A DNA stretch of 64,000 bases from an uncultured Myxococcales bacterium (GTDB lineage Bacteria > Myxococcota_A > UBA9042): the NCBI GenBank assembly GCA_903955385.1, contig CAJBNH010000149.1:1-64000 (forward strand), written 5' to 3'. Positions within the stretch are counted from its first letter, which is position 1; every line of letters begins with the position of its first letter. Below the pieces are notes generated by a model. The model was given only the letters and a program-made list of their open reading frames with translations. It was not told where the DNA came from and did no database searches. This document shows, piece by piece, positions 1-8,339 of this stretch. A program made the position numbers and the translations under genes.

Positions 1-403
1 ACAGCAGCGCCTGCCAGTGCTGCAGGTACATGTCGAACGAACGCTTGAAGATCACATCGATGCCGTCGACCGACACACCGCCAGAGGTGGAGGGGCGCTG
101 CTGACTCGACTGCTGCTGGTACGCCTGCTGCGGAGCCTGCGCGTAGGTCGGCGGCGCTTGATAGGCGGGCGGCTGCGGCTGGGCTGGCGGGGGCTGGTAC
201 GCGGGTGGAGGCGGTGGAGGCGGAGGCGTTGCGCCCGGCCAGTCCTGCGCAAGCTCGGCCATCGTACCGGCGCTGGTCCACTGCGCGGTCTCATCCTGAT
301 AGACGTAGTCTTCGCGCTTGAGTTGACCGGCGCGTGCCTGCTCGCGCAGTTGATCGACCGTGACGCCAACCGACTGGCCGTCCCGGTGGATGTAGTAGCC
401 CAT
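1..403 (-). CDS. GYF-domain membrane-associated protein, 3' end outside window
   Basis: This reading frame is open to the left edge, so only the N-terminal 134 residues are seen. It starts with ATG at 403 behind a perfect AGGAGG at 409-414. Residues 1-50 (starting MGYYIHRDGQSVGV) look like a bacterial GYF_2/DUF4339 domain, which usually binds partner proteins. A Pro/Gln/Ala-rich linker (PPPPPPAYQPPP type) follows, and then VDGIDVIFKRSFDMYLQHWQ, which resembles the start of the integral-membrane part seen after GYF_2 domains in many uncharacterised proteins (inference). It is divergent from the DUF4442 gene; the 258-base gap shows no further feature I can support. Its function is unknown. Confidence 0.75.
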   Translation of the reverse strand, partial: MGYYIHRDGQSVGVTVDQLREQARAGQLKREDYVYQDETAQWTSAGTMAELAQDWPGATPPPPPPPPAYQPPPAQPQPPAYQAPPTYAQAPQQAYQQQSSQQRPSTSGGVSVDGIDVIFKRSFDMYLQHWQALL

Positions 404-661
404 CTCGACCTCCTGAAGTGCATCGCATCCGCCAAGCCGTGGTTTGTCCCGGATGCCGACTGGATTGTGCGAACCTGCGAGGTCGTACCGGGAGTCGCGC
501 TTGGGCGCAAGCCCCCAGCCCCCCAAAGGTCCGCAGAGACGCCGAACCTTCACGCAAGAACAGTTTCTGCAACGCGGGGAAGCAGGTATCGTGCGTCGTC
601 CGGTCGCCCTCGTCGGCGACGTTCTGCCGACAGTGTCCCGCCCTGCCCGCCCCGAGGTTGC

Positions 662-1141
662 ATGTCCCCCAACTGGTCGCTGATGCGCGAGACGCTGTTG
701 CTGAGGGCCTACGCGCTGCCCCGCATTCCGATGATCACCCTGCTGAGCCCGACCGTGGTGGCGCTGGACGACCAGCACGCGGTTGTGCGGATCCCGCTGA
801 CCTGGCGGTCGAAGAATCACCTGGGCTCGATGTATTTCGGCGCGTTGAGCGTGGGGGCCGACTGCACCGGCGGCCTGCTGGCGATGCAGGAGATGCGGCG
901 CCGACCCGAAAAGATCGCGCTTGTGTTCAAGGACTTTCACGCCAACTTCTTGAAGCGGGCCGATGGCGACGTGCACTTCACTTGCCGTCAAGGCCCCGAG
1001 ATCCGCGAGCTGGTACAACGCGCCGCGGACACGGGCGAGCGGGTCGAACTGCCGATGGACATCGTCGCGACCGTGCCCGGGAAGTACGGCGACGAACCGG
1101 TGGCGAAGTTCGTGCTGACGCTGTCGCTGAAGCGGCGCTGA
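662..1141 (+). CDS. DUF4442 thioesterase-like hot-dog protein
   Basis: The 159-residue product resembles DUF4442 proteins, which have the hot-dog fold of PaaI-type acyl-CoA thioesterases. Visible family features are the NHLGSMYFGALSVGADCTGG segment near residues 56-75, where hot-dog enzymes carry the active-site helix, and the strand-rich C-terminal half ending in FVLTLSLKR. The start at ATG 662 follows GAGG; longer in-frame extensions upstream lack a ribosome binding site and family likeness. The gene is followed in the same direction, after 90 bases, by the radical SAM gene. The substrate cannot be told from sequence. Confidence 0.75.
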   Translation: MSPNWSLMRETLLLRAYALPRIPMITLLSPTVVALDDQHAVVRIPLTWRSKNHLGSMYFGALSVGADCTGGLLAMQEMRRRPEKIALVFKDFHANFLKRADGDVHFTCRQGPEIRELVQRAADTGERVELPMDIVATVPGKYGDEPVAKFVLTLSLKRR

Positions 1142-1231
1142 CGGCCCTTGCATGAACCGAATCGGCGCGAAGTGGCTCGCACCTTGGACCGGATTCGCGT
1201 CCGACCTTTCCCACACCCGGACTCGCCCACC

Positions 1232-2578
1232 ATGAAGCTCTCCCGTACGACCGTCTTTGCCCCGATTCCCGACCGTGACGACGTCCTGTTGGTTCAGCCG
1301 CTGACCGCACAAGTCGCTATTCTGGAAGCGGAAGCTGCGGCTGCGCTGCGCGAGGTCGAGAGCGGCGCCGCCCTGCCCGCCTCGCTGGACCTCGACGTGC
1401 TGCGGCAGGCGGGCTTTGTGGTGGACGGCCCGGGGCAGGACAAGGCGATGATGGCCGAGGCGTATGCCGATTTTCGCGAGGAGCAGCACAAGACGCCCAC
1501 GCAGCTGATCGTGGTCCCCACTTTTGCTTGCAATTTCAAGTGCACCTACTGCTACCAGGAGCCGTTCGACCCCGACCAGGGGCGTCTTGTGTCGCCTGAA
1601 GTCATCGACGCCTTCTTCGCCTGGCTGGACCGCTTCCACGGCGCAGACGACCCCAAGCCCTACGTGACGCTGTTCGGCGGCGAGCCCTTGGTCGACACGC
1701 CGACCCACCACGACCGGTTGCGGCGCTACATGGATGGTGTGGCGGCGCGCGGACTGAAGCTGGCGGCGGTGACCAACGGCTACGATCTGGCTGCTTTTGC
1801 CGACGAATTGGCCGCGGGTCCGGTGCGCGAGGTGCAGGTGACGCTCGACGGTCCTGAGGCGGTGCACGACCTGCGTCGCGTCCACGCGTCCGGTCGCGGC
1901 ACCTTCCACCGCGTCGTCGCCGGCATCCAGTCGCTGGTCGACCGAGGCGTGCCCGTGAACCTGCGCGTGGTGGCGGACCGCCAGAATCTGGCCGCCCTGC
2001 CCGAGCTGGCGCGTTTGTGCGACGACAAGGGCTGGCTGGATCTGCCGCAAGAGCGATTCAAGACGCAAATCGGCAGGAACTACGAGCTGTTCGGCTGTGC
2101 CAGTCGACAACGGCGCGAGGAACTCTTGGACCGCGCCGGGCTGTGGCGTTCTTTCGTCGAGCTGTCGGAAGTCCACCCGCTGTTGCGCAAGTTTCACTCG
2201 CCGCGCTTTCACGGCATCGGCCACCTGGCCGCCACCGGCGAGTTCCCGATGGCCAATTTCGACGCCTGCCCGGCCGGCAAGAAAGAGTGGGCGTTCGCTC
2301 CCGACGGCAGCGTCTACGGCTGCACGGCCACCGTGGGCAACGAGAAGTATCGTTTCGGCAAGTTCTATCCCGAAGTGGTGCGCGACGACGACGCCACGGC
2401 CGACTGGGAGATGCGCAGCATCCTGACCATCCCCGAGTGCAAGTCCTGCGCGCACGCCACCATCTGCGGCGGCGGCTGCGGGGCCATCGCTTCGGACCGC
2501 AACGGCACCCCCCTGTCGCCCGACTGCCGACCGGTGCCCGAGGTCATGGGGTTGGGTGTCCGCTACTACGGATTGTGA
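1232..2578 (+). CDS. Radical SAM/SPASM-domain protein
   Basis: The 448-residue product has the radical SAM cluster motif CNFKCTYC at residues 100-107 and a GGEP-type SAM-binding segment (LFGGEPL) near 148-153. The C-terminal SPASM domain, about residues 350-432, has seven cysteines (FDAC, YGC, PEC, KSC, TIC, GGGC, PDC), enough for two auxiliary iron-sulfur clusters. The roughly 90-residue N-terminal region ahead of the barrel resembles the peptide-engaging region of SPASM maturases. Such enzymes modify peptides or proteins, for example thioether-peptide maturases and sulfatase maturases. ATG 1232 is preferred over an in-frame ATG at 1148, which would add a non-conserved Arg-rich leader. No obvious precursor peptide lies directly beside it; the nearest small Cys-rich frame is at 4117-4218 on the other strand. 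The substrate is unknown. Confidence 0.85.
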   Translation: MKLSRTTVFAPIPDRDDVLLVQPLTAQVAILEAEAAAALREVESGAALPASLDLDVLRQAGFVVDGPGQDKAMMAEAYADFREEQHKTPTQLIVVPTFACNFKCTYCYQEPFDPDQGRLVSPEVIDAFFAWLDRFHGADDPKPYVTLFGGEPLVDTPTHHDRLRRYMDGVAARGLKLAAVTNGYDLAAFADELAAGPVREVQVTLDGPEAVHDLRRVHASGRGTFHRVVAGIQSLVDRGVPVNLRVVADRQNLAALPELARLCDDKGWLDLPQERFKTQIGRNYELFGCASRQRREELLDRAGLWRSFVELSEVHPLLRKFHSPRFHGIGHLAATGEFPMANFDACPAGKKEWAFAPDGSVYGCTATVGNEKYRFGKFYPEVVRDDDATADWEMRSILTIPECKSCAHATICGGGCGAIASDRNGTPLSPDCRPVPEVMGLGVRYYGL

Positions 2579-2589
2579 GGGTGTGGGGC

Positions 2590-2616
2590 CGCGACGAAGT
2601 GGAAGTCCCCGTCGCG
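2590..2616. terminator. Possible weak bidirectional terminator hairpin
   Basis: A 7-bp inverted repeat (CGCGACG / CGTCGCG) with a 13-base loop lies between the convergent radical SAM and trxB genes. There is no T run on either strand, so a terminator role is only suggested by position. Confidence 0.25.
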
Positions 2617-2639
2617 CTTGCAGATCCGGGACCTGACGG

Positions 2640-3590
2640 TCAGGCGACCGCCACCCGCATCCCCGAGTCCTTCACGAACTTCTGCGCCGCCAACGCTGCG
2701 ATCGTCCCGTCGGCCACGGCCGTCGTGATCTGCCGGTAGCGCTTCACCCGGATGTCGCCCGCGGCAAACACGCCGGGAATCGTCGTGGCCATCGACTCGT
2801 CGGTGGGCACGTAGCCGCCGGGAGCCAGCTCGACCAGCCCGTCCAGCAGGTCGGTGCGCGGCTTCATGCCGATGAAGATGAACACGCCGTCGGTCTTCAG
2901 GTCTTCAGTCTGGCCGCTCTTCAGGTTCTGGACGCGCACCGCCTCGATCTGCCCCTCACCCAGGAAGGCGCGCGGCTCGGTGCTCCAGAGGACCTTGATC
3001 TTGGGGTGCGTCAGCGCCTCGTGCGCCGTCGTCGGCTCGGCCTGGAACTCGTCGAACTGGTGCAGAATCGTCACGGAGTTGGCGAACTGCGTCAGGAACA
3101 GCGCTTCCTCCACTGCAGAATTGCCGCCGCCGATGACGTGGATGTCCTTGCCGTCGAAGTACGCGCCGTCACAGGTCGCGCAGTAGGACAACCCCTTGCC
3201 GCGCAAGTTGTCTTCGCCGGGGATCCCCAGTGGTCGTGGCTTGGCGCCGGTCGACAGGATCACCGCCGGGGCCGTCACGACTTCTTCCTCGTCCAGCTCG
3301 AATCGCTTCAGCGGACTGGTCAGGTCAAAAGACGTGATCTCGATGGCGCGGGCGATACGCGTCCCGAACCTCTCGGCTTGCAGAGCGAAATTCATCGCGA
3401 GGTCAGTGCCTTTGATGTCCTCCGGAAAGCCGGGATAGTTCGAGACCTTGTGCGTCGTCTTGACCTGGCCGCCGGGCATGCCCTCGTCCAGCACCAGGGT
3501 CTTCAACCGTGCTCGCGACGTATAGATCGCGGCCGTCAGTCCAGCAGGACCGGCGCCGACCACGATCACGTCATAGGCATTCGTCTTCAT
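2640..3590 (-). CDS. trxB: Thioredoxin reductase
   Basis: The 316-residue product is a normal-length low-molecular-weight thioredoxin reductase. This cytosolic flavoenzyme passes electrons from NADPH to thioredoxin. The FAD motif GAGPAG is at residues 12-17, the redox-active CATC at 137-140, the NADPH-domain motif GGGNSA at 154-159, and a C-terminal FAD-binding GVFAAGDIR segment follows. The start at ATG 3590 has AGGAG nine bases upstream; an in-frame GTG 21 bases earlier would place that ribosome binding site inside the gene. It lies 38 bases downstream of the thioredoxin gene in the same direction, so the pair is probably co-transcribed. Confidence 0.95.
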   Translation of the reverse strand: MKTNAYDVIVVGAGPAGLTAAIYTSRARLKTLVLDEGMPGGQVKTTHKVSNYPGFPEDIKGTDLAMNFALQAERFGTRIARAIEITSFDLTSPLKRFELDEEEVVTAPAVILSTGAKPRPLGIPGEDNLRGKGLSYCATCDGAYFDGKDIHVIGGGNSAVEEALFLTQFANSVTILHQFDEFQAEPTTAHEALTHPKIKVLWSTEPRAFLGEGQIEAVRVQNLKSGQTEDLKTDGVFIFIGMKPRTDLLDGLVELAPGGYVPTDESMATTIPGVFAAGDIRVKRYRQITTAVADGTIAALAAQKFVKDSGMRVAVA

Positions 3591-3628
3591 GGGGGGATTC
3601 TCCTGCGGCACCGCGTGCGGCGACCGGT

Positions 3629-3961
3629 TCAGCTGACCAGGGCTTCCACCGCGCGCTTGATGGCGCTGCGCTGGATGTCGCCCGCGAGACGCTCACCCAA
3701 CTCCTTGCCGCCCTTGAAGAAGACCAGCGTGGGACTGCCCGTCACGTTCAGGCGGACCGCCAGCTCACGACTGGCCTGACGGTGCACCTTCACGAACTTC
3801 ACCTGGCCAGCGAACTGGTCGGCCACCGCGTCGAACTTGGGCGCCAGCGCCTCGCACGGCGGGCACTCGGTCGAGTAGAAATCGAGCACGACCGGGGTGT
3901 TGGCTCCCAGCACCTCGGCATCGAACTGGTCCATGGTGATCTCGGAAACGTGTGCGCTCAT
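3629..3961 (-). CDS. trxA: Thioredoxin with CPPC active site
   Basis: The 110-residue product matches the thioredoxin fold along its full length. The redox motif is CPPC at residues 33-36 instead of the usual CGPC, a change in the dipeptide that tunes redox potential and partner choice in this fold. The cis-proline loop GSPT is at 74-77. ATG 3961 has AAGGAG seven bases upstream. It sits between the Cys-rich peptide/ArsM-like genes and trxB, all leftward. ArsM enzymes are known to use thioredoxin as reductant, so this is a plausible dedicated partner (inference). Confidence 0.93.
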   Translation of the reverse strand: MSAHVSEITMDQFDAEVLGANTPVVLDFYSTECPPCEALAPKFDAVADQFAGQVKFVKVHRQASRELAVRLNVTGSPTLVFFKGGKELGERLAGDIQRSAIKRAVEALVS

Positions 3962-4069
3962 GACGGACTCCTTGCAGACGGACGGGTACGGTGGTCGACC
4001 TGCCGACTGTGGCAAGTGACCATGGGGTAACGAGAAAATCTGGTTGCGGCAGTTGGAACAGGGTTGCGT

Positions 4070-4097
4070 CGGTCCGGCCCGCAAGCGAACCGGACCG
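4070..4097 (-). terminator. Perfect hairpin between Cys-rich peptide and trx
   Basis: CGGTCCGG (4070-4077) and CCGGACCG (4090-4097) form an 8-bp perfect stem with a 12-base loop, 20 bases downstream of the stop codon of the 33-residue peptide. No U run follows on the leftward transcript, so it may be a partial terminator, an RNA-stabilising structure or a processing site rather than a full terminator. The 155-base peptide-trx gap otherwise shows nothing I can name. Confidence 0.4.
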
Positions 4098-4116
4098 GCG
4101 CTTCCCCAACTTCGAG

Positions 4117-4218
4117 CTAGTCGTGGCAGCCGGCGACAAGGCGCGAGGCCTTGGCGCAGCACTGCGCGGTCTTCTCGGGCGTGCAGCACGCCTTGCGGAC
4201 TCGGGTCAGCAGCTTCAT
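4117..4218 (-). CDS. 33-residue cysteine-rich peptide, unknown
   Basis: This short frame starts at ATG 4218 with AAGGAG seven bases upstream, one of the better ribosome binding sites in the region, and ends in TAG. The product has five cysteines and one histidine in a CC-x7-CC-x9-CH pattern (Cys 11, 12, 20, 21, 31; His 32), several Lys/Arg near the N-terminus, and no clear signal peptide. It lies between an ArsM-like methyltransferase and a thioredoxin, in the same direction, with a perfect hairpin on each side. I do not recognise a family. The vicinal cysteine pairs would suit As(III) or soft-metal binding, or disulfide exchange with thioredoxin; a substrate role for the nearby radical SAM enzyme is a further possibility. 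All of these are inference, and it could also be a chance frame. Confidence 0.55.
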   Translation of the reverse strand: MKLLTRVRKACCTPEKTAQCCAKASRLVAGCHD

Positions 4219-4237
4219 GTCACTCCTTGCTCAACCG

Positions 4238-4259
4238 GCCGGAGAAAGAGCTCTCCGGC
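4238..4259 (-). other. Perfect hairpin upstream of Cys-rich peptide
   Basis: GCCGGAGA (4238-4245) and TCTCCGGC (4252-4259) form an 8-bp perfect stem with a 6-base loop in the 62-base gap between the ArsM-like gene and the peptide. No U run follows. It could cause transcript processing or attenuation between the two genes. Confidence 0.4.
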
Positions 4260-4280
4260 ACACTGGAATTCCGTGGGCGG

Positions 4281-4931
4281 CTACTTCACGCCGCGAAGCG
4301 TCAGGCTGCGCACCAGCACGCCTCCCTTCTCATACGGTTCCGAGCGGTCCAACACCTGCACCAGCTCAAACCCGCCCGCCGTCACGGCCTGCAGGTACTC
4401 CGGCTCAGGGATCGCTCCACCGTAGCATGCCGCCCAAGCCGCGGGGTCCCGGCGCACCTCTTCGGGCAGCTCGGCGTCGGCGATGACGTCGGACACCACG
4501 AAGCGTCCGCCTGGCTTCAGGACTCGCCACATCTCGCGATAGACGGCCTGCTTGTCGGGCGCGTGGTTGATCGTGCAGTTCGAGATCAGGACATGGGCCG
4601 ATTCGTCAGGCAGGTCAAGCGCTGCGAGATCGCTCTGCACGAATCGCACGTTCTCCAAGAATGCCGGCGTCGCCTTCAGCGCTTGGGCGATCATTGCGGA
4701 GTTCTGATCGATGCCGATCGCCTGCCCCGTCTCGCCCACTCGACCCGCCGCGCGGATGACGTCCTGGCCACGGCCGCAGCCGAGATCGACCAAGGTCTCG
4801 CCCTCTTCGACATTCGCCAGGTCCAGCGCCGCGCCGCAAGACAGCGAGCAGCACGACGTCGACAGCGCGGCGTAGCGGACTTCCACGGCCTGCCGCAGGG
4901 CGTCCAGAGCAGGCAGGGGAGTCGTCGTCAT
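4281..4931 (-). CDS. arsM: ArsM-like arsenite methyltransferase
   Basis: The 216-residue product is a class I SAM-dependent methyltransferase with SAM motif I (LVDLGCGRGQD) at residues 48-58. ArsM enzymes methylate As(III) held by conserved cysteines. Here Cys32 (in CCSLSCG), Cys119 (in NCTINHAPDK) and Cys169 (in CYGGAIP) sit where the arsenic-binding cysteines of ArsM lie, and the N-terminal SCCSLSC cluster is typical of the family. ATG 4931 is chosen because GAGG lies seven bases upstream; an in-frame ATG at 4958 has only a weak site. The C-terminal extension of longer ArsM proteins is absent. It is 66 bases downstream of the MBL lipoprotein gene and heads the peptide/trx/trxB cluster. The substrate could be another thiol-binding metalloid. 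Confidence 0.75.
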   Translation of the reverse strand: MTTTPLPALDALRQAVEVRYAALSTSCCSLSCGAALDLANVEEGETLVDLGCGRGQDVIRAAGRVGETGQAIGIDQNSAMIAQALKATPAFLENVRFVQSDLAALDLPDESAHVLISNCTINHAPDKQAVYREMWRVLKPGGRFVVSDVIADAELPEEVRRDPAAWAACYGGAIPEPEYLQAVTAGGFELVQVLDRSEPYEKGGVLVRSLTLRGVK

Positions 4932-4997
4932 CGGGAGGCCTCGCACGTTCGGCGCCATCTGTCACCGCCTGTCAGAGCCCCTTCGTGGCGGAAGGAT

Positions 4998-6044
4998 TCA
5001 CTGCGGCACGTCGCGCCCCTCACCGAAGCCCAGCACCCAGAAGCGCGGGGCGTCTTTCCCCTTCGCGTCCAGAGCCTTGTGCAGCTCCACCACCGGCTCG
5101 TCCTGTCCATCGTCGGCCAGTTTGAAAGTGCCAAAGTGGATGGCGACCGCCGTGCGCGCCCCCGTCAGCAGCTGTGCCTCCACCGCCTCTGCGGGCGAGA
5201 CGTGCACGCGAGACATGAACCAGGTGGGACGAAACGCGCCGATGGGCAGCAGGGCAAGTCGCAATGGCGCGAATTTCTGGCCGATCTGTTGGAAGTGCGG
5301 CCCCATGCCCGTGTCACCCGCGAAGTACACCGCACCTGCCGGTGACTGCACCACGAAGCCGACCCACAGCACCTTGTCGCGGTCTTGCGTGCCCCGTCCC
5401 GAGAAGTGGCGCGCCGGCACGGCCGTCACGCGCACCTGCGGCGTCAGGTCGGCGCCCTGCCACCAGTCCAGATCGACCGTGGCAGGCATGCCCTTGGCCT
5501 CGAACCACGCGGACATCCCCAACCCGGAGTAGATCTTCGGTTTGTCTCGCTCGACCAGCCGCCGAATCGTCGCCTCGTCCAGGTGGTCGTAGTGGTTGTG
5601 GCTCAGCAATACCGCGTCGATCTTGGGCACGTCTTCGAACCGCAGGCCCGGCGGTCGCTGGCGCTCGGGCCCCACCCACGAGAACGGGCTGACGCGGTCG
5701 GACCACACCGGGTCGGTCAGCAGGTTCAAGCCGTCCACCTGCACCAGCACCGTGGCGTGGTTCACGAACGTCACGCGCAGCTCACCGGCGCCCACGCGCG
5801 CGGGCGGCAGCGGACCGAAAGGCGCATCGGTCACGGCCTTCCACGGCCCGGGGTCGCGGCTGACCATCCACTTGACCATCGAGCCAAAGCCCGCGTGCTC
5901 CGTCTCTCCCTCGTTGCGAAACCGCTCACCGTCGAAGTGGTCCGTCGTCGGACCGCGCCACACCGGGGCCGACAGCGAGCAGCCCACCAGATTCGCCACG
6001 ACCAGCAGCACCACCACCGACGCAACCATCGCACCGACGATCAT
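4998..6044 (-). CDS. MBL-fold hydrolase lipoprotein (NAPE-PLD-like)
   Basis: The 348-residue product begins with a signal peptide and lipobox (LVGC, lipidated Cys22). A metallo-beta-lactamase fold follows, with the metal motif HNHYDHLD at residues 149-156, GDTGMG near 245 and an IHFGTF segment near the end. The layout resembles the NAPE-PLD/RomA-like branch, whose members hydrolyse phosphodiesters or remain uncharacterised. The start at ATG 6044 has GAGGAG five bases upstream, and it begins exactly at the hydrophobic leader. It is divergent from the DUF4139 gene and lies 66 bases upstream of the ArsM-like gene, so it may share that transcript. It probably acts at the envelope; the substrate is unknown. 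Confidence 0.85.
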   Translation of the reverse strand: MIVGAMVASVVVLLVVANLVGCSLSAPVWRGPTTDHFDGERFRNEGETEHAGFGSMVKWMVSRDPGPWKAVTDAPFGPLPPARVGAGELRVTFVNHATVLVQVDGLNLLTDPVWSDRVSPFSWVGPERQRPPGLRFEDVPKIDAVLLSHNHYDHLDEATIRRLVERDKPKIYSGLGMSAWFEAKGMPATVDLDWWQGADLTPQVRVTAVPARHFSGRGTQDRDKVLWVGFVVQSPAGAVYFAGDTGMGPHFQQIGQKFAPLRLALLPIGAFRPTWFMSRVHVSPAEAVEAQLLTGARTAVAIHFGTFKLADDGQDEPVVELHKALDAKGKDAPRFWVLGFGEGRDVPQ

Positions 6045-6188
6045 CCGAACTCCTCGTGGCTTGGGCTGCTCCATGGGGGGCAGCATGGGGGATCGAAACC
6101 GCATCGGCAACGCTCGCATCTGTTCCGTTCCCACCTGTTGTGCTACCACTTCGCCCACAATCCGCCCAAGCGGTTCGATGAGGTCGCG

Positions 6189-8339
6189 ATGGTTCCGATG
6201 CGCCTGTCCTCCGTGATTCTGGTGATGTCGAGCGTGTCTGCCGGTCTGCTGGGCGTTGCGCTCGCAGGCTGCGGTGCTGCAGCCGTGCAGACCGCGCCGG
6301 ACCTGCCGATCAGCAAGGTCGTGCTTTACCAGAACGGCGTCGGCTATTTCGAGCGGCGTGGAACGGTCAAGGGCGAGGCGGTCGAGCTGCGGGTGCGCCC
6401 CGACCAGATCAACGACGTGCTGAAGTCCCTGTCCGTTCTGGACTTGTCGGGCGGCGTGCCGTCGTCTGTGTCGCTGCCGGTCGAGCGGTCGGGTGACAGT
6501 CTGGCCGCCGAGCTGCCGCCCCAGGTCCGCAATGCCACGGGGATGACGGCGTTGCTGCCGGTGCTGCGCGGCGCGCAAATCGAGGTCGAGACGGCCGACG
6601 GCACGTTTGCCGGGCGCGTGGTGGGCGTCGAGATGAGCAACCGCCCCAACGACAAGGGCGAACAGCAGCCGACCGCGATGCTGACCCTGATGGACGGCGA
6701 GGACGAGCTGGTGACGACTCCGGTGGCCGGCGTCCAGCGCGTGACCATCGGCGACCGGACGCTGTCGGTGGGTCTGCAGCAGTCGCTCGAGATCTCGCGG
6801 TCCGACGGCGCGTGGAAGCCGGTGACGCTGACGATCCGCCTGGCGGGCGACTCGTCGCACGACCTGATCGTGTCCTACATTCATGAGGTTCCGATCTGGC
6901 GGCCGGCCTATCGCGCTTGGGTCGAGTCCGGCAAGGGCGTGCAGCTGCAGGGTTGGGCCATCGTCGACAACGTCAGCGGCGAGCCTTGGACGGACGTGAA
7001 CCTGACGCTGGTCGTCGGCTCGCCCCTGTCGTTCCGGTACGACCTGCACACCCCGCACCACGTCACGCGCCCGGACCTGACCTCTCGCCTGCCCACCACC
7101 GCCGATGCGCCGCCTGAGCCCGACGTGGGCTACGAGATGGCCCCGCCGTCGCCGCCGCCCATGGCCGAAGCGTCTGGCGCGTACGACGACATGAAGGAGG
7201 AAGCGCCGTCTGCCGCGTACCGGTCGAAGAAGTCCGGCGCCCCCAGTCCGCCGCGGTCGATGCCCAAGCCTTCCGCCGGACCTTCGTATGACCGCCAGCA
7301 GGTGGCCGAGGAATCCCAGAAGCGCGACGCCATGATCCGCTCGGCGCAGGCGTTGGTCACGGGCAAGGAGGTCGGCGCGCTGTACACCTACGAGGCCACC
7401 ACGCCCATCACCGTTCCCGATCGCTCGGCGGCGTTGGTCAACATCGTGTCGCGCAAGGTCGATGGCCAGGACGTATTCCTGTTCCGCGAGCCGACGTCGG
7501 GGGCCGCCCCGTTCCGCGCGGTGCTGTTGCGCAACGGCAAGGACAGCGCCCTGGAAGGCGGTCCCATCACGCTGTATGTCGACGGCACATTCGCAGGTGA
7601 GGGCTTCATCGGTCGCGTCGGCAAGGACGAGACGGCCTTCATCCCCTACGCCCGCGAAGGCGGGTTCGCCGTGAACATCCAGACCGAGTCGCGCACCGAC
7701 GAGCTGCGTTTGGTCAAGGTCGTGGACGGCCGCATCACCATTCAGGGCAAGCGGGTCTACACGCGCACGGTCGCCATCGACTCGAACCGGGACCAAGAGT
7801 CGGTCGCGTACGTCAAGCTGGGCCTGACCGGCGGCATGACGATGCAGGACCCGCCCAAGGACATCGTGAAGTCAGGCGGAGAGATCTACCTGCCGGTGCG
7901 CATCAAGGCCAAGTCCAAGGGTGAGGCGAAGTTGGTCGAGTCGACGCCGGTCGAGTTCGTCGAAGCCGGCCTGACGCCGACGGTGGTCACGGCCTTCCGC
8001 TACTTCCTGCAAAACGCCAAGCCCGAAGACGCGATCGCCGGCCCGGTCCGCGAGCTGATGGCCATCTACGACGAGGTCGCGCGCATTCAGGCCGACTCGC
8101 AGAGCCTGCGCGAACAGCGGGAGATCCTCGAGCGTGAGGCCCAGCGCATCCAGTCCAACCTGGACGCCCTGCCCGACGCGGTGGTCGCCGCGGCCCTGCG
8201 CAAGCAGCTGTTGACCCAGCTGGAGGGCGTCAGCAAGAAGGCGGCCGACGTGGCCAAGCGTCTGGTCGAGAACGAGGTCAAGCTCGCAGCCCTGCAAGAG
8301 AAGACGGTCGTGCTGCTGCGCCAGATCGAGCTGAAGTAG
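6189..8339 (+). CDS. DUF4139-domain secreted protein
   Basis: The 716-residue product has an N-terminal hydrophobic leader with a possible lipobox (ALAGC), then the paired DUF4140/DUF4139-type region common to secreted proteins of unknown role. Visible parts are the N-terminal LYQNGVGYFERRG strand segment, a WRPAYRAWV...GWAIVDNVSGEPWTDVNLTLV core near residues 235-275, a Pro/Ser-rich linker (about 300-365), a second beta-rich region, and a C-terminal coiled coil from about 625 to 716. The family is known from bacteria and eukaryotes, but its biochemical function is not established. ATG 6189 follows GAGG; ATG 6198 is an alternative. The next gene starts 31 bases downstream. Confidence 0.75.
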   Translation: MVPMRLSSVILVMSSVSAGLLGVALAGCGAAAVQTAPDLPISKVVLYQNGVGYFERRGTVKGEAVELRVRPDQINDVLKSLSVLDLSGGVPSSVSLPVERSGDSLAAELPPQVRNATGMTALLPVLRGAQIEVETADGTFAGRVVGVEMSNRPNDKGEQQPTAMLTLMDGEDELVTTPVAGVQRVTIGDRTLSVGLQQSLEISRSDGAWKPVTLTIRLAGDSSHDLIVSYIHEVPIWRPAYRAWVESGKGVQLQGWAIVDNVSGEPWTDVNLTLVVGSPLSFRYDLHTPHHVTRPDLTSRLPTTADAPPEPDVGYEMAPPSPPPMAEASGAYDDMKEEAPSAAYRSKKSGAPSPPRSMPKPSAGPSYDRQQVAEESQKRDAMIRSAQALVTGKEVGALYTYEATTPITVPDRSAALVNIVSRKVDGQDVFLFREPTSGAAPFRAVLLRNGKDSALEGGPITLYVDGTFAGEGFIGRVGKDETAFIPYAREGGFAVNIQTESRTDELRLVKVVDGRITIQGKRVYTRTVAIDSNRDQESVAYVKLGLTGGMTMQDPPKDIVKSGGEIYLPVRIKAKSKGEAKLVESTPVEFVEAGLTPTVVTAFRYFLQNAKPEDAIAGPVRELMAIYDEVARIQADSQSLREQREILEREAQRIQSNLDALPDAVVAAALRKQLLTQLEGVSKKAADVAKRLVENEVKLAALQEKTVVLLRQIELK

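Follow-up and report, generated by a model that had tools for sequence, protein, structure and literature searches.

The 33-codon frame between an arsM-like gene and a thioredoxin gene of an uncultured Myxococcales bacterium is a real gene, far beyond what chance would give, and the most consistent partner of its product is a radical SAM/SPASM peptide maturase. The 64,000-nucleotide stretch analyzed here (the window) carries both, together with thioredoxin reductase. In the literature searched, which took in few subscription papers or preprints, no description of the cassette or of the peptide was found, and the gene set is thus apparently undescribed. Our overall reading, which we consider probable, is that of a RiPP-type cassette in which a radical SAM-modified peptide is kept reduced by thioredoxin and its reductase and may serve, in the same pathway as the ArsM-like enzyme, as a metalloid carrier or cofactor.

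Organization of the locus

A preliminary description of this locus, made from the sequence alone, had reported a leftward gene cluster, its spacings, the cysteine pattern CC-x7-CC-x9-CH in the peptide and a strong ribosome binding site of the peptide gene, and all of these agree with the sequence. The ArsM-like and peptide genes are 62 nt apart, the peptide and thioredoxin genes 155 nt, and the thioredoxin and trxB genes 38 nt. These four genes do belong together, but the proposed cluster omitted a further member of the set, the radical SAM/SPASM gene, which is convergent with trxB and lies 61 nt past the trxB stop (Table 1). Upstream of the ArsM-like gene, a gene for a metallo-beta-lactamase-fold hydrolase (PF12706; 4998-6053, minus strand) is outside the conserved set.

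Table 1 Features of the cassette in the window
Feature	Position	Strand	Basis
Radical SAM/SPASM peptide maturase	1232..2578	+	PF04055; TIGR04085 SPASM over cut-off; CteB match; synteny
CX3CX2C radical SAM motif, Cys100/104/107	1529..1552	+	invariant in 56 proteins
SPASM cysteines C346, C364, C403, C406, C412, C416, C432	2267..2527	+	invariant in 56 proteins
Thioredoxin reductase TrxB	2640..3590	-	TIGR01292, 351.6 bits, over cut-off
Thioredoxin, CPPC active site	3629..3961	-	PF00085, 80.2 bits; fused to TrxB in relatives
Cys-rich precursor-like peptide, 33 aa, MKLLTRVRKACCTPEKTAQCCAKASRLVAGCHD	4117..4218	-	homologues in relatives and at least 118 loci
Conserved C-terminal peptide core, 16 residues, AQCCAKASRLVAGCHD; stop codon immediately 3'	4120..4167	-	motif comparison
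Ribosome-binding site of the peptide gene, AAGGAG	4223..4228	-	sequence
ArsM-like SAM methyltransferase, 216 aa, short form without C-terminal extension	4281..4931	-	PRK11873, PDB and fold matches
ArsM-like Cys169, aligned with CmArsM Cys224	4425..4427	-	alignment; invariant in 38 cassette ArsM
ArsM-like Cys119, aligned with CmArsM Cys174	4575..4577	-	alignment; invariant in 38 cassette ArsM
ArsM-like Cys32, aligned with CmArsM Cys72	4836..4838	-	alignment; invariant in 38 cassette ArsM

The peptide has a nearly invariant C-terminal core

A six-frame search of 53 relatives returned homologues of the peptide in members of the class with E values of 5e-7 to 1e-4, each of them a short frame ending in AQCCAKxSxxxxGCHD-stop. 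We ran the degenerate pattern QCCAK-x6-GCHD over the genome collection and obtained at least 118 loci besides the window. Three features lay outside the search pattern: the stop codon, which directly follows GCHD in 118/118 matches listed, the alanine before Q, found in all 119 sequences when the window is added to the matches listed and encoded by four different codons, and the serine of the core, kept in 116 of these 119. Purifying selection on the core is strong, the pN/pS over the last 16 codons being 0.16, a value obtained with saturated synonymous sites and partly forced by the pattern. Variants with QCCSK and QCCTK are present among the Spirochaetota peptides encoded beside the maturase, and the invariant core reads A-Q-C-C-[AST]-K-x-[ST]-x4-G-C-H-D-stop. 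The first CC is a trait of the subgroup to which the window belongs, where it is retained with a spacing of 6-9 residues (once 15), and it is not found family-wide. Of the proposed conserved pattern CC-x7-CC-x9-CH, the C-terminal part, AQCC[AST]Kx[ST]xxxxGCHD, therefore stands, whereas a universal CC-x7-CC was rejected. The peptide matched no NCBIfam model, and the search against Pfam gave only a sub-threshold BTK zinc-motif match (E 0.027).

The preliminary description had taken the peptide to be real, unannotated and linked to the ArsM-like enzyme and thioredoxin, and had held that lack of conservation of the frame in relatives or a dN/dS near 1 would speak against it. Both points were examined: the frame is conserved, with the low ratio given above, and the homologues in relatives and the fixed stop at the 118 loci listed bear the claim out. 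We rejected an artefactual or chance frame on this conservation.

The peptide gene is co-inherited with a radical SAM/SPASM maturase

To avoid conditioning on the peptide motif, we searched with a maturase profile instead. Among 296 Spirochaetota genomes, the maturase was found in 33 and the peptide in 34; both were present in 32 genomes, the maturase only in 1, the peptide only in 2 and neither in 261 (Fisher p ~2e-39). The exceptions are contig ends: one genome (G749) is cut just upstream of the maturase, and two (G872 and G907) have maturase fragments. The 52 genomes of the window's own class gave the same picture (both 8, maturase only 1, peptide only 0, neither 43), and in the single exception (G020) a contig end cuts beside the maturase. 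A full-scoring maturase occurred in six of 396 Bacteroidota genomes, with the peptide adjoining in 6/6; weaker Bacteroidota radical SAM matches (at most 270 bits; L204-L209, L211) are without an ArsM partner and were left out of these counts. When the Spirochaetota loci found via the radical SAM gene were read, the peptide lay beside the maturase at 28 of 29, and in the remaining genome (G699) it was on the same contig, on the opposite strand and ~2.2 kb away.

A RiPP-type system calls for a short precursor gene that adjoins a maturase gene and is co-inherited with it, and this is what was found. Given the co-occurrence and the adjacency, the peptide is very probably the substrate of the maturase. 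With such a partner it appears as a RiPP-type precursor rather than as a plain adaptor. The earlier proposal of a metalloid carrier or redox adaptor was thus right in tying a conserved peptide to the ArsM-like enzyme and thioredoxin, but it missed the maturase, which points to a precursor of this type.

The positions of the two genes also bear on whether the frame could instead be a leader with a regulatory (attenuator) function, or encode no functional peptide at all. The frame is short and lies within an operon, as a leader would; yet its invariant residues are encoded by varied codons, its stop is fixed and its conservation is C-terminal, and the peptide gene can stand on the strand opposite to the maturase gene, as in G699, or behind it (L092). 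There is no terminator-like structure 3' of the frame, and a riboswitch or other Rfam RNA was rejected, as positions 1-8000 gave no Rfam match. We regard a leader or chance frame as having a negligible probability.

Relationship of the maturase to known families

The CX3CX2C motif, Cys289 and the seven SPASM cysteines were kept in 56/56 maturase relatives. The AlphaFold2 (AF2) model of the maturase (pLDDT 92.7) matched the fold of CteB most closely, followed by anaerobic sulfatase maturases, SuiB and TigE, and CteB also came first by sequence profile; its structures (PDB 5WGG, 5WHY) are thus the nearest solved ones by both sequence and fold. CteB is a thioether peptide maturase. For the N-terminus of the window enzyme, three strands followed by helices are predicted, and the fold match to CteB is nearly full-length; no Pfam PqqD/RRE match was found for this part. 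The model suggests that the N-terminus may be RRE-like.

As in the CteB/SCIFF system, a SPASM radical SAM enzyme has a short Cys peptide encoded alongside. The precursor described here differs in being without the six-Cys-in-45 pattern of SCIFF, and we know of no ArsM-like or Trx-TrxR partners in the SCIFF/ranthipeptide family. Membership in that family (TIGR03974) was rejected, the maturase scoring 79.8 bits against a cut-off of 425. The best NCBIfam matches were TIGR04463 (rSAM_vs_C_rich) and CefB (NF038107), both Cys-rich RiPP maturases by name, but the scores are far under the cut-offs: 141.7 against 525 for TIGR04463 (120-142 with relatives included) and 122.2 against 600 for CefB (112-130 with relatives included). 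The peptide likewise sets the system apart from these two, as it matches none of the NCBIfam models. No named NCBIfam maturase family was over its cut-off, either for the window enzyme or for its relatives.

The ArsM-like methyltransferase and its thioredoxin system

The best PDB matches of the methyltransferase by sequence were CmArsM structures (4KW7/4FR0), and the first 13 fold matches of its AF2 model were all ArsM/AS3MT. Cys72, Cys174 and Cys224 of CmArsM are As(III) ligands (PMC7248198, PMC12608789), and their equivalents were invariant in 38 cassette ArsM proteins. The protein therefore resembles ArsM/AS3MT enzymes (CmArsM, CrArsM) in its fold, its SAM motif and its three As(III)-binding cysteines; it differs from them in its length, in the absent C-terminal extension, in its position outside any ars operon and in its score with the arsenite methyltransferase model PRK11873, which is under the cut-off (188.6 against 263 bits, for 216 aa against a 272-position model). 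The C-termini of cassette ArsM proteins are often Cys-rich (GCCCCK, SCCCS; e.g. L051, L057, L029), 54/81 having one or more Cys among their final 12 residues; the window protein is without such a tail. A phage-defence model was rejected, since the mad2 match was partial and covered the methyltransferase domain only.

A CXXC thioredoxin stands next to a TrxB with a CATC active site, as is expected of a thioredoxin/reductase pair. AS3MT, the human homologue of ArsM, uses the Trx/TrxR/NADPH system (PMC12608789), which fits these neighbours.

Gene order and distribution

In seven cassettes of relatives (L021, L023, L025-L029), the genes lie on one strand in the order ArsM-like, peptide, radical SAM, Trx-TrxB, and two others (L022 and L024) have this order as far as the contig or locus end. 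Among the matches listed, all five parts were present at 28 of the 30 sufficiently flanked loci, and the radical SAM gene at 81 of the 85 having room for it. The maturase gene directly follows the peptide gene in most relatives, and most of them also encode thioredoxin and TrxB as one fused frame, which was seen at at least 60 loci. The arrangement of the window, with these two genes split and the radical SAM gene convergent, was seen again at two loci (L060, L085), and Anaeromyxobacter genomes show other rearrangements with every part within a few kb. The recurrent extra neighbours are of redox type (DUF302, DUF6132, DUF1847, SQR-like, additional Trx/TrxB). Among the recurrent neighbours we found no conserved protease or exporter and no arsenic-resistance (ars) genes, neither an arsenic efflux gene nor an ars regulator being conserved.

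Several local variants were noted. Bacteroidota cassettes often have DUF302, DUF1847, DUF6132 and SQR-like genes (L100, L065, L130, L067), and in one of them (L130) a DUF302-like gene lies between the peptide and the maturase. A Spirochaetota subgroup (L225, L230, L231) encodes a small protein of ~55-62 aa, MKKxITVKELCxELxxR...IDCCKxE..., just past the maturase. One radical SAM gene (L027:8860-10199, genome G040) is interrupted by an internal stop and split into two frames, being either broken or misassembled, and one Myxococcota genome (G049) has the complete cassette in three paralogous copies (L021, L028, L029).

Among the matches listed, motif loci are carried by about nine phyla: Bacteroidota, Spirochaetota, Myxococcota, Ignavibacteriota, Fibrobacterota, Gemmatimonadota and three candidate phyla. 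The carriers among these matches are mostly metagenome bins, and two are isolates, Anaeromyxobacter soli and A. oryzisoli. A plasmid-borne copy of the cassette was looked for, and none was found.

Discussion

In the pathway that we propose, the maturase would bind the MK(S/L)L-type N-terminus of the peptide and modify its fixed core, the most likely change being a thioether or another type of cross-link at cysteine residues; on balance, we favour such cross-linking. The CPPC thioredoxin and its reductase, driven by NADPH, would keep both the peptide and the ArsM-like enzyme in the reduced thiol form. The latter would act in the same pathway, most likely by methylating a thiol-bound metalloid, e.g. 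As(III), held via the CC/CH thiols of the mature peptide. The near-fixed core and the lack of a conserved protease or exporter, in which the cassette differs from many RiPP clusters, suggest that the product would stay inside the cell as a carrier or cofactor rather than be secreted as an antibiotic.

Since no ars genes recur, the case for a metalloid comes from the active site of the methyltransferase and from the analogy with ArsM/radical SAM pairs that make organoarsenicals; set against the missing ars genes and the redox-type neighbours, this gives metalloid involvement roughly an even chance. Because the ArsM-like enzyme retains its three As(III)-binding cysteines, a thiol carrier of metalloid for the methyltransferase is plausible from the sequence, and we tentatively propose the peptide for this part. 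It is possible, though somewhat unlikely, that the product is a metalloid RiPP, a cofactor conserved in several phyla in which arsenic (or a different metalloid), methylated by the ArsM-like enzyme, is carried by the modified Cys/His core or bonded to it covalently.

Other readings have to be weighed against a metalloid carrier. Without any metalloid, the mature peptide may act inside the cell as a cofactor or carrier in thiol redox reactions, served by the Trx-TrxR fusion, with the ArsM-like enzyme methylating the peptide itself, e.g. at Cys or His. The near-fixed core without a conserved exporter or protease and the thiol/redox neighbours (extra Trx, TrxB, DUF302, DUF6132, SQR-like) in place of recurrent ars genes are consistent with this; however, all three As(III)-ligand cysteines are invariant, which is unexpected for a peptide methyltransferase, and we consider this reading unlikely. 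By analogy with known pairs of ArsM and radical SAM enzymes, which yield organoarsenicals, namely arsinothricin (ArsL, arsQML) and arsenosugars (ArsS) (PMC8552651), the maturase might instead join arsenic to a peptide carbon, or methylated arsenic might be fixed on the peptide, giving a peptide organoarsenical. The cassette resembles the arsQML and ArsS/ArsM pairs in combining ArsM with a radical SAM partner, and both enzymes are conserved with the peptide. However, ArsL has only three radical SAM cysteines and is non-SPASM, and arsQML uses no peptide and has no Trx-TrxR fusion (PMC8552651), whereas the cassette has a SPASM-type, CteB-like maturase, a peptide and, at many loci, such a fusion; moreover, neither arsenic efflux nor an ars regulator is conserved. 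An arsenic-containing RiPP of this kind thus seems improbable. As for the model of the preliminary description, in which an unmodified peptide would link ArsM and thioredoxin as a metalloid carrier or redox adaptor and the radical SAM gene would be unrelated, the ArsM and thioredoxin neighbours are real and AS3MT does use Trx/TrxR/NADPH (PMC12608789), but the near-perfect co-occurrence and adjacency of peptide and maturase in several phyla make it very improbable.

Mycofactocin and PQQ are peptide-derived cofactors with a near-fixed C-terminal core, a SPASM-type maturase and a wide, patchy distribution. The cassette shares these three traits and differs in its Cys core without aromatic residues, in its other partner enzymes and in having no protease partner. 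A nearly invariant product core points to a conserved physiological role and not to a diversifying antibiotic. The cassette ties an enzyme of the arsenic methyltransferase type to a radical SAM peptide maturase and to a thioredoxin system of its own. Should the peptide turn out to carry a metalloid, this would be a new way of arsenic handling; if it does not, the peptide would be a candidate for a new peptide-derived redox cofactor.
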